30,180 bases of DNA from IMG/VR virus record IMGVR_UViG_3300046455_000120, positions 1-30,180 of that record, one strand, 5' to 3'. The notes beneath the pieces are model-generated. The model saw only the letters and a program-made list of their open reading frames with translations. It did not search any database and was not told where the DNA came from. This stretch comes from a virus. The translations under genes and the position numbers were made by a program. This document shows positions 7,930 to 21,230 of this stretch, piece by piece; position 1 is the stretch's first letter, and each line of letters begins with the position of its first letter.

Positions 7930-8127
7930 TTATTGTGGAATTCGTTGGGCCAATGGCGCGCGCACGGCGCGGTCCTGAAACGTTGCGTTCTGCTCGACAT
8001 AATACGACCGGCCGACCTTGACCGGCGCGGGATAGATCTTGCCGGCGTTGATCCAAAGGCGTGCGGTGCGGATTGCGGGCGGCGGATCGAAATTCCGGCT
8101 GAGCCACAGGTCAAGGCGGATTTTCAT
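7930..8127 (-). CDS. xis: Excisionase-like protein
   Basis: 65 residues, basic. The segment TARLWINAGKIYPAPVKVGRSYYV matches the winged-helix pattern of lambda-like excisionases (recognition helix, then the wing PPVKxGRxYxV). It sits immediately upstream of the integrase with a 3-base gap, the classic xis-int order. It should bind attP DNA, bend it and direct the integrase toward excision. Its ATG overlaps the stop of the alternative frame above the methyltransferase (ATGA). Confidence 0.8.
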   Translation of the reverse strand: MKIRLDLWLSRNFDPPPAIRTARLWINAGKIYPAPVKVGRSYYVEQNATFQDRAVRAPLAQRIPQ

Positions 8128-8954
8128 GCTGCCTCACTTTCTCTTGAGTATGGTGAATGCTGCCGCAGCCACTCGCGGAACTTGTCCATTGCCAAGGGCC
8201 TTAACTCGGTCCATCCGATGGGCCACCCCATCAACCACTCGACCCATTCCGGGTTCAACTGGCCATTCAATTCCTCGGGGGTAACCATGCCGCGCAATTT
8301 CTCGCGTGACCCCGATCCGCCCCATTTGCACATCGCTGTCCCGCCCGAGTTCGTCACGGCGGTTGGCGTCGGCCAGCGGCGTGCCGATATGGCCTCGATC
8401 AGCGTTCCTCCCTCTCGCCCTTTGCTGGGAGTAATTCGGCCGCCATGCGCCGCAAGCGTTGCTGTTGGCGTCGGCCAGTATCCAGATACGCTCTCGTAAA
8501 TGGGGAGCGCCGGTATCCGCCGCAGAAACGACTCCCCATTCCGCATCGAACCCCATCGCGGCCAAGTCTCCGAGAACTTTTCCGAGTCCCCGAGAAGTGA
8601 GCATTGGGCTGTTTTCCACATAGACGAACTCTGGTCGTACTTCGCGAATGATGCGAGCCATATGCGACCAGAGACCGCTTCTTGATCCATCGATGCCGAT
8701 CCCTGCGCCGGCTGCACTGATGTCCTGGCATGGAAACCCACCAGAAACGATGTCAACAAGGCCACGCCATGCTGTTCCGTCAAAACTCGTGACGTCAGAC
8801 CAAATCGGGAATGGTCGCAAGGCTCGATCGTTTTGTCGTTGCGCCAGAACTTGTGCGGCGTAGGCATCACATTCAACTGCGCAGACGGTGCGCCATCCAA
8901 GCAGGTGTCCGCCGAGTATTCCGCCACCAGCGCCTGCGAAAAGAGCCAGCTCAT
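8124..8954 (-). CDS. Alternative-frame ORF over the methyltransferase gene (candidate overprinted gene)
   Basis: 276 residues on the same strand, shifted against the methyltransferase frame along its whole length. Its ATG follows the upstream stop directly (TGAATG) with GGAGGG eight bases upstream, a better spacing than the TTG of the methyltransferase. Its stop overlaps the excisionase start (ATGA). The protein is Trp/Ser-rich: QLNVMPTPHKFWRNDKT, SMWKTAQCSLLGDS, two WPTPTA motifs and LNPEWVEWLMGWPIGWT. From memory, proteins with these motifs are annotated in phage genomes as hypothetical or methylase-related. It may be a real second product or a by-product of a conserved, GC-rich frame; sequence alone cannot settle it. 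Confidence 0.4.
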   Translation of the reverse strand: MSWLFSQALVAEYSADTCLDGAPSAQLNVMPTPHKFWRNDKTIEPCDHSRFGLTSRVLTEQHGVALLTSFLVGFHARTSVQPAQGSASMDQEAVSGRIWLASFAKYDQSSSMWKTAQCSLLGDSEKFSETWPRWGSMRNGESFLRRIPALPIYESVSGYWPTPTATLAAHGGRITPSKGREGGTLIEAISARRWPTPTAVTNSGGTAMCKWGGSGSREKLRGMVTPEELNGQLNPEWVEWLMGWPIGWTELRPLAMDKFREWLRQHSPYSRESEAA

Positions 8955-8958
8955 TCAA
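8134..8958 (-). CDS. DNA (cytosine-5) methyltransferase
   Basis: 274 residues. Motif I LFAGAGGG (6-13), motif IV GGFPCQDIS with catalytic Cys77, motif VI VENSP (114-118), motif VIII RERIWILA and the C-terminal LGNGQVP (motif X region) are all present in order. The target recognition part (about 165-225) is short, as in other phage enzymes. The start must be the TTG at 8958: it lies right before motif I and overlaps the upstream stop (TTGA). The SD GGAGGG is only four bases away. It would methylate phage (and host) DNA, probably to escape restriction. The same DNA carries a second open frame, listed separately. Confidence 0.9.
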   Translation of the reverse strand: MNELALFAGAGGGILGGHLLGWRTVCAVECDAYAAQVLAQRQNDRALRPFPIWSDVTSFDGTAWRGLVDIVSGGFPCQDISAAGAGIGIDGSRSGLWSHMARIIREVRPEFVYVENSPMLTSRGLGKVLGDLAAMGFDAEWGVVSAADTGAPHLRERIWILADANSNACGAWRPNYSQQRARGRNADRGHIGTPLADANRRDELGRDSDVQMGRIGVTREIARHGYPRGIEWPVEPGMGRVVDGVAHRMDRVKALGNGQVPRVAAAAFTILKRK

Positions 8959-9317
8959 GCGACCCTCCGCAACGTCATCGCCAGATCCGCGCGCCGGTAC
9001 ATCTCCGCGAAGTATCCGGTGAGCTCACCTGTCATCACCGCATAAGTCCGCGGCTGCGCGACCGTCGCCGGATCGACCTTCGGCTTAGGCTCTGGCAGCT
9101 TCCGCAAGTGCTCGGTGCCGGCGAGGATGAAGGAGACGTTCTTGCGCGGCTTGATGATCGCGAGCGTGCCCTGGCTGACCATCTGGAGCAGCACCGCCTT
9201 GACCGGCGCGGCATGCGTGCGGAGTCGCTTGGCGAGGATATGCGGCGGGTAGATGGCTCCGGGCCTCATCAGCGAGAGCAGGAGTTCGGGCGTCGGTGCT
9301 TGTGTGGAGTAGGGCAT
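8955..9317 (-). CDS. Winged-helix-like small protein, paralogue of 20883-21230
   Basis: 120 residues. The N-terminal 60 residues (ELLLSLMRPGAIYPPHILAKRL, then APVKAVLLQMVSQGTLAI) have the spacing of a winged-helix DNA-binding fold: a helix, a recognition helix and a short strand pair. The C-terminus reads TGELTGYFAEMYRRADLAMTLRR. The protein at 20883-21230 shares the same arrangement, including the final (G)xLTGY...LAMxxRR. It is tightly packed between the XRE regulator (stop at 9318, next base) and the methyltransferase. A regulatory DNA-binding role is inferred, not shown. Confidence 0.65.
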   Translation of the reverse strand: MPYSTQAPTPELLLSLMRPGAIYPPHILAKRLRTHAAPVKAVLLQMVSQGTLAIIKPRKNVSFILAGTEHLRKLPEPKPKVDPATVAQPRTYAVMTGELTGYFAEMYRRADLAMTLRRVA

Positions 9318-19133: not shown

Positions 19134-19267
19134 ACTCCACTACGCCCGCGCATGCGCGCGAATTGGTGTCATGCGCTGAATGCAGTCTGCCGCTTGGCTG
19201 GTTGGCAGGTGGAATGCTGCCATATGTCATTTGCAACGATTGTAAGGTCAGCAAGGATCAGAAATGA
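19130..19267 (+). CDS. Small zinc-ribbon-like protein
   Basis: 45 residues with two CxxC pairs, CAEC (about 15-18) and CNDC (about 36-39), suggesting one zinc site, and a hydrophobic segment between (GWLAGGMLPYVI). ATGA overlaps on both sides. Function unknown. Confidence 0.6.
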   Translation: MNSTTPAHARELVSCAECSLPLGWLAGGMLPYVICNDCKVSKDQK

Positions 19268-19809
19268 AATTCGCCTACGCCGATCCACCCTATCTCGGCT
19301 GTTCCGTGAAGCTATACGGCGACCATCCTGAAGCCGCGGTCTATGATTCGGTCGAAGGGCACAAGGCACTGATCGACAGGCTATGTAGCGAGTTCTCAGA
19401 CGGATGGGGCCTGTCAATGACTAGCGGCAACCTGCATGACATTCTGCCGCTCTGTCCGAAGGAAGCACGCGTGATGGCCTGGGTAAAACCATTCGCAGCC
19501 TTTAAACCGAATGTCGGCGTTGCCTATGCATGGGAGCCCGTCATTGTCATGGGTGGGCGCAAGCGCACTCGCCAGCAGGACACTGTGCGCGACTGGTGCT
19601 CCGTGAACATCACGCTCAAGCGTGGATTCACTGGAGCCAAGCCGGCCGAATTCACGTTCTGGCTGATGGACGTCCTGAACGTTCAGGAGGGTGACGAAAT
19701 GCATGACCTGTTTCCCGGATCTGGCGCAGTTCAATCGGCGGTCGACGCGTACTTCGGCGCGATGGGCGGACAAGTTCAAGACGGACTTTTTGCGGAGGTC
19801 TCAGCATGA
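19264..19809 (+). CDS. DNA adenine-N6 or cytosine-N4 methyltransferase
   Basis: 181 residues. Catalytic motif DPPY at residues 7-10 comes first; the AdoMet-binding motif LFPGSG is at 149-154, preceded by KPAEFTFWLMDVL. The order IV then I puts it in the beta-type arrangement. It is short, with a minimal target-recognition region. It would methylate an exocyclic amino group in a short DNA sequence, probably to protect phage DNA; this is the second methyltransferase in the window, and it lies in the rightward operon. Confidence 0.85.
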   Translation: MKFAYADPPYLGCSVKLYGDHPEAAVYDSVEGHKALIDRLCSEFSDGWGLSMTSGNLHDILPLCPKEARVMAWVKPFAAFKPNVGVAYAWEPVIVMGGRKRTRQQDTVRDWCSVNITLKRGFTGAKPAEFTFWLMDVLNVQEGDEMHDLFPGSGAVQSAVDAYFGAMGGQVQDGLFAEVSA

Positions 19810-20882: not shown

Positions 20883-21230
20883 ATGCGGCCACGGAAACAG
20901 CGTCTCCCACTCACCCTCGATTCCCTAACCGCTCTCATGATCCCCGGCACGCCGTACACGACCCTCAAGCTATCCCACATCTTCGACGGTTCACCGGAGG
21001 CCGTAGCGGCGGTTCTGGCGACTCTCACGGCTATTGGCAGGGTCAAGACATCGCTGCCTGAATGCGGACGCCATCGCGACCGACGTGAAGAGAGGCGGAT
21101 CTACTGGATTCCGTCGCTTGAGCGCACCGATGTCGCACAGCGGCGCACCGGGCCGGCTGAGGTGGCTGGCGTCCTCACCGGGTATGACCTGACCGCCTTC
21201 CAACGCCTCGCAATGGCTTCTAGACGCTGA
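20883..21230 (+). CDS. Winged-helix-like small protein, paralogue of 8955-9317
   Basis: 115 residues, GGGGAA about six bases before the ATG. LTALMIPGTPYTTLKLSHIF, PEAVAAVLATLTAIGRVKTS and RRIYWIP give helix, recognition helix and wing-like strands. The end EVAGVLTGYDLTAFQRLAMASRR parallels GELTGYFAEMYRRADLAMTLRR of the leftward-operon protein. Likely a DNA-binding regulator, by structure-like pattern only. Forty-six bases without a gene follow it. Confidence 0.6.
   Translation: MRPRKQRLPLTLDSLTALMIPGTPYTTLKLSHIFDGSPEAVAAVLATLTAIGRVKTSLPECGRHRDRREERRIYWIPSLERTDVAQRRTGPAEVAGVLTGYDLTAFQRLAMASRR

Follow-up and report, generated by a model that had tools for sequence, protein, structure and literature searches.

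C5-cytosine DNA methyltransferases are built from a large domain with motifs I-VIII and X and a small domain with the variable region and motif IX (PMC3404938), and in a model of M.SssI the large domain likewise comprises motifs I-VIII and X (PMC3404938). Separately expressed fragments of several of these enzymes reassemble in E. coli (PMC3404938). In the two-subunit enzyme M.AquI (CYCGRG) motifs IX and X are located on the small subunit (PMC3404938). In M.EcoHK31I (YGGCCR), an alpha/beta enzyme reported by Lee, Kam and Shaw in 1995 and summarised in PMC3404938, motif IX alone is found on the small polypeptide and motifs I-VIII and X on the large one, to which the target-recognition domain has also been assigned (PMC3404938). 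In Cluster O mycobacteriophages there are two methylase ORFs, the second of which shows coding potential already within the first (PMC4351075, 2015); whether two products assemble or a frameshift joins them was left undecided there (PMC4351075).

We analysed a viral DNA of 30,180 nucleotides, referred to as the window, in which two frames on the minus strand overlap almost end to end. The first, alpha (8134..8958, 274 aa), starts with TTG and matches PF00145 (5e-31). The second, beta (8124..8954, 276 aa), starts with ATG 4 nt further on and is a fully overlapping +1-frame ORF, for which the evidence is its openness in homologues, motif IX and constraint at alpha wobble positions. A Shine-Dalgarno sequence GGAGGG (8963..8968, minus strand) is shared, 4 nt from the alpha TTG and 8 nt from the beta ATG. 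At TTGAATG (8952..8958, minus strand) bases are shared between the alpha start (8958-8956), the TGA of the upstream gene (8957-8955) and the beta start (8954-8952). The upstream gene (8955..9317, minus strand) has no Pfam or PHROG match and, since its stop overlaps the alpha start, is probably translationally coupled to alpha. At the other end the beta stop forms an ATGA overlap with the excisionase gene (7930..8127, minus strand; ATG at 8127; PF07825 Exc, 8.6e-15). An earlier note made from the letters of the window had described these two frames, the position of the beta ATG directly after the upstream stop and behind the GGAGGG, the ATGA overlap and the methyltransferase motifs of the TTG frame (PCQ, ENS, LGNGQVP), and all of this was found as described, the motifs reading GFPCQDIS, VENSP and ALGNGQVP in full. 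Its paired shadow motifs are present as well: LADAN in one frame with WPTPTA in the other, and VEPGMGRVVDGVA with LNPEWVEWLMGW.

Elsewhere in the window we noticed that the product of the upstream gene has a weak paralogue encoded at 20883-21230 on the plus strand (29% identity, E 2e-4); both are small proteins without family matches and carry a similar LTGY...LAM..RR segment at their C-terminal ends. A DPPY-containing protein encoded at 19264-19809 (plus strand) weakly matches D12 N6-adenine methyltransferases (17.5 bits, below cut-off) and is possibly a second DNA methyltransferase of the phage.

In order to judge the open beta frame against chance, alpha was redrawn with the codon usage of the window. 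The redrawn genes contained a mean of 4.4 beta-frame stops, and the frame stayed open in 0.36% of the 20,000 redraws. Alpha has 12 stops in its other shifted frame, and ten other genes of the window have 4 to 17 in the same shifted frame. For one sequence alone a chance origin is thus unlikely but possible. Among 80 methyltransferase homologues, the best-scoring viral-contig loci found with alpha as sole query and including some near-duplicates, the beta frame is free of stops in 73, compared to 0.43 expected from synonymous-codon shuffling of each gene. This openness holds down to 45% GC, and the other shifted frame of the same homologues has a mean of 16.5 stops per gene. Across these homologues the open frame is far beyond chance, and a chance open frame at about 60% GC is ruled out by the homologues and the redraws. 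The initiation region is conserved too. Of 119 non-redundant loci, 112 begin beta with ATG, and in 111 the two starts are offset by exactly 4 nt, with beta second. A Shine-Dalgarno-like motif, most commonly spaced 8 nt from the beta ATG, precedes 169 of 185 distinct loci, and 169 of 185 have a stop codon immediately before the beta start. The usual alpha start is ATG, GTG or TTG. For the alphas lacking it (29 loci listed), all but one have an in-frame start upstream, which removes missing alpha starts as a problem for the model.

We then considered constraint at synonymous sites. Each alpha wobble base occupies the middle position of a beta codon, so that nearly every substitution at it changes the beta protein. 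Where two loci share the amino acid at a four-fold degenerate alpha site, the wobble identity amounts to 0.54-0.58 for pairs of 50-70% protein identity, compared to 0.29 expected from composition. Single-chain controls gave 0.41-0.43 at 40-60% identity, from a small set of 13 relatives in which some residual overlap is possible. The identity peaks at 0.93 (0.29 expected) in alpha 226-250, where beta encodes motif IX; in alpha 61-90, the block with the PCQ catalytic motif, it is just 0.43 (0.29 expected). Individual alpha codons are frozen or nearly so at the wobble base, namely CCC in 153/153, GTG in 144/144 and GCC in 148/148 and 158/159; the wobble of alpha A133 is C in 148/148 and that of G136 is G in 167/169. 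Invariant or near-invariant alpha wobbles lie under beta P132, G135, P235, W240, G243 and P245, so that in these alignments four-fold sites of alpha are frozen exactly at the motif positions of beta. One such block is the conserved TWPRWGSMRNG of beta (8530..8567, minus strand), which the alpha frame reads as LAAMGFDAEWG and in which frozen alpha wobbles are found. Judging by this pattern, both frames are conserved coding sequence under purifying selection, i.e. a dual-coding pair. The earlier note had held that the second frame might be a real overprinted gene; the infrequent stops in homologues and the strong synonymous-site constraint bear this out.

The methyltransferase motifs are distributed over the two frames. 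Alpha has motifs I, IV (PCQ), VI (ENS), VIII and X. Motifs I-VIII are located at 8470..8958 on the minus strand (FAGAGGG, PCQ at C77, ENS, RERIWILA) and motif X at 8176..8196 on the same strand (LGNGQVP, within ALGNGQVP). The PF00145 match covers only profile positions 4-165 of 324, the first half. Motif IX (LNPxWVEWLMGWPxGWT) was looked for in the alpha chains and found in 0 of 119; it is present in 115 of 119 betas. Motif X is reversed, with 118 of 119 alphas and 1 of 119 betas. In the window motif IX is encoded at 8208..8258 (minus strand) as LNPEWVEWLMGWPIGWT in beta, the same DNA, which lies in the alpha 226-250 block of high wobble identity, reading EPGMGRVVDGVAHRMD in alpha. It follows the beta variable region (8259..8480, minus strand), which has two WPTPTA motifs opposite LADAN segments in alpha and is probably the target-recognition part. 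An hhalign comparison placed beta 159-249 on the part of single-chain enzymes that comprises the PTP repeats and motif IX (E 8.9e-10, probability 96.5%). This alignment suggests beta as the place of target recognition; the alpha frame also spans the same DNA. Within the aligned sequences the conserved motifs are split between the frames without duplication, and the alpha/beta border coincides exactly with the known border between large and small domain. Because beta carries motif IX and the variable region that alpha lacks, it is a probable second subunit of the same enzyme. A beta that is merely a mis-called frame is ruled out by the wobble constraint together with this division of motifs.

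Searches with beta itself gave no Pfam, NCBIfam or PDB match, and a beta-profile sequence search of the PDB returned chance-level matches only. The PHROG families matched are labelled DNA methyltransferase or unknown function. No homology to a known anti-restriction family was found in Pfam, NCBIfam, PDB or PHROG. The N-terminal half of beta is long and conserved, without a recognisable fold or a counterpart in other methyltransferases. AlphaFold predicted beta alone poorly (pLDDT 55.5, pTM 0.25), best around motif IX, and a fold search with this low-confidence model was set aside as evidence. Such a poor model fits the expectation for an obligate subunit and is not positive evidence for one.

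Single-chain relatives were found in the actinophages mcgavigan, MelBins, PFR2 and Estave1. They share the core, the PTP-containing variable region and motif IX with the window pair; however, motifs I-VIII, LLPTPxA repeats, EWMMGWPAGWVT and GNGVCPQQA (or close variants) all lie in one frame, whereas the window splits them over two. Since these enzymes hold the variable region and motif IX together with I-VIII and X, the two frames appear to split the enzyme along known domains. PF00145 covers positions 20-312 of 324 in PFR2. The EWMMG/GNG block of the single-chain enzymes aligns onto M.HhaI 281-307, the score of the block itself being insignificant. A compact single-chain form (L384, 282 aa) was predicted well (pLDDT 77.9, pTM 0.79) and its predicted fold matches M.HhaI over its length (E 5e-15). 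In a set of 44 loci, many of them fetched with a single-chain query and the weakest matches only suggestive, 27 have motif IX in the +1 frame, 14 have it in frame and 2 in the +2 frame, and in 1 it was not found; one of the two +2 loci has a frameshifted core.

Several relatives showed further irregularities. In L388 (520-1551) alpha-type sequence (motifs I-VI) and then beta-type sequence (ATWPTVGTMRNG, LLPTP repeats) are joined in one ORF, and motifs IX and X come after it in a different frame, so that the pair contains a natural switch of frame. In Mycobacterium phage Llama (L246, gp74/gp75) an apparent indel relative to SG4 (L245) interrupts the methyltransferase core, which goes on in a second annotated ORF; this ORF remains free of stops since both frames are open. 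In L378 and L379 the CQD of the methyltransferase frame is immediately preceded by VVHN, the last residues of an intein-like C-terminal segment; this is a probable intein at the catalytic cysteine. The second methylase ORF of Arthrobacter phage Scavito (gp82; L255, 106-1383) has about ten PTP-type repeats before motif IX; the window has two. The number of repeats differs widely and is possibly linked to target specificity.

Comparing the locus by description with M.EcoHK31I, both have two polypeptides, a large one with I-VIII and X and a small one with IX. The small subunit of M.EcoHK31I is read from an alternate frame inside the gene of the large one. Beta likewise lies in an alternate frame of alpha, in the window and, with the 4-nt offset, in the 111 of 119 loci. 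Differences concern the extent and content of the overlap: unlike in M.EcoHK31I, the overlap of the window frames is end to end and 4 nt separate their starts, beta equals alpha in length and seems to contain the variable region, which contrasts with the target-recognition domain on the large subunit of M.EcoHK31I, and no restriction partner was noticed adjoining the window locus. M.EcoHK31I is the characterised precedent for the motif split seen here, and the window form is a variant in which the overlap runs end to end and both frames share one initiation site. M.AquI is also naturally divided into two polypeptides; in contrast to it, motif X of the window stays on alpha, so the pair is not of the AquI type. 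AquI-kind pairs do occur in actinophages (Schuy gp6/gp5, Lilbooboo gp32/gp33), and Scavito is likewise AquI-like. Pairs of the Corndog gp6/gp7 type resemble the window in having two overlapping methylase ORFs, but their overlap is partial, and the relative Schuy gp6/gp5 has IX and X in the second ORF.

Next, we assessed how the frames occur together. All 80 loci picked by a beta-only DNA pattern (WPRSGMMRNG) have an alpha match in the -1 frame with E below 1e-14. Beta as a free-standing family was therefore rejected: the search for a beta without alpha, proposed along with the stop count by the earlier note, found 0 among these 80 loci. Most annotation lists only one protein of the pair. In Salmonella phage S9-5 this is alpha; on a P. 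aeruginosa plasmid it is beta, as 'hypothetical protein', with the alpha frame open; Paenibacillus phage Leyra has both annotated. The suspicion that a database family might be a mis-called frame was thus right in that annotators usually list just one of the two and wrong in that both frames are real. Six prophage or MAG copies (L166, L173, L192, L206, L220, L236) have a nonsense codon in alpha with beta still open, directly after the catalytic cysteine in L166; these are decaying copies or sequencing errors. The reverse, a broken beta with open alpha, was seen in a few copies, and decay looks similar in both frames.

Taken together, one stretch of DNA very probably encodes, in two frames, the two parts of a single C5-cytosine DNA methyltransferase, each as a separate protein. 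The most likely and most economical reading is a heterodimer of an alpha catalytic domain and a beta DNA-recognition domain. We infer that beta is translated, assembles with alpha and sets the specificity of a protective enzyme. Ribosomes brought in by one Shine-Dalgarno sequence would have two choices of start codon, the alpha NTG and the beta ATG that lies 4 nt downstream of it. Alpha would fold as the large catalytic domain with motifs I-VIII and X, binding AdoMet and providing the PCQ catalytic loop; beta, as the small domain with the WPTPTA-containing variable region and motif IX, would recognise the target and complete the active enzyme. The heterodimer would most likely methylate phage or prophage DNA as an orphan methyltransferase and so protect it against host restriction.

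The long conserved N-terminal half of beta, which has no counterpart in other methyltransferases, and the missing Pfam, NCBIfam and PDB matches would also suit a real overprinted protein with a job of its own (anti-restriction, regulation of the methyltransferase or other) that is no subunit. We consider this improbable, since motif IX is on beta, absent from alpha and in frame in single-chain relatives, and no beta was ever found without alpha. The accessory or anti-restriction product suggested by the earlier note is disfavoured on the same grounds, as both the variable region and motif IX, missing from the methyltransferase frame, are found in beta. A single product fused by ribosomal frameshifting was left as an open possibility for the Cluster O mycobacteriophages, in which C-terminal methylase helices are encoded by the second ORF (PMC4351075). 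In the window it would need two shifts, into beta for motif IX and back to alpha for motif X, and beta has its own conserved ATG, an ideal Shine-Dalgarno spacing and, in the 169 of 185 loci, a stop directly before its start; we therefore regard frameshifting as very unlikely. It could finally be argued that beta is untranslated and that alpha sequence and GC content suffice to explain why its frame is open and similar among homologues, as any conserved gene partly conserves its shifted frames and the window alone, open in 0.36% of redraws, leaves some room for it. With 73 of 80 homologues open against 0.43 expected, synonymous positions frozen at the beta motifs and the other shifted frame rich in stops, this is hardly credible.

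The dual-frame arrangement is not restricted to the window. The same arrangement was found in prophage-like loci of Pseudomonas, Acinetobacter, Burkholderia, Geothrix, Verrucomicrobiota and others, by matches to both frames in Vibrio and Microcystis phages, and also in a Lacticaseibacillus phage, a Bacteroides plasmid and a plasmid of the archaeon Methanomethylovorans. An unrooted tree built from 74 cores places the single-chain forms within one group rich in actinophages and scatters the +1 form across the remainder. This placement suggests that the single-chain forms arose by re-fusion. Whether two-subunit enzymes, with catalytic and DNA-recognition domains written in two frames of one DNA stretch, make up a large part of the 'orphan' C5 methyltransferases found in phages, prophages and plasmids, with the dual-frame form widespread and perhaps ancestral and the actinophage single chains re-fused from it, we rate as evenly balanced. 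New here are the end-to-end overlap, the shared start and the breadth over several bacterial phyla and an archaeal plasmid; no published description of the end-to-end overlap was found in the open-access literature.

If true, this would be a long, old and widespread same-strand dual-coding pair for which a reason can be given, namely that two domains of one enzyme are written over each other. The overlapping frame would then not simply be a de novo orphan, since beta shares homology with a known domain in its C-terminal half. It would offer a testable answer to the open question of the mycobacteriophage methylase pairs (PMC4351075) and would account for the many phage methyltransferases without motif IX. 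Gene callers, which avoid long overlaps on the same strand, would in most cases leave half of the enzyme unseen, and one subunit would be silently lost from versions with optimised codons or synonymous recoding.
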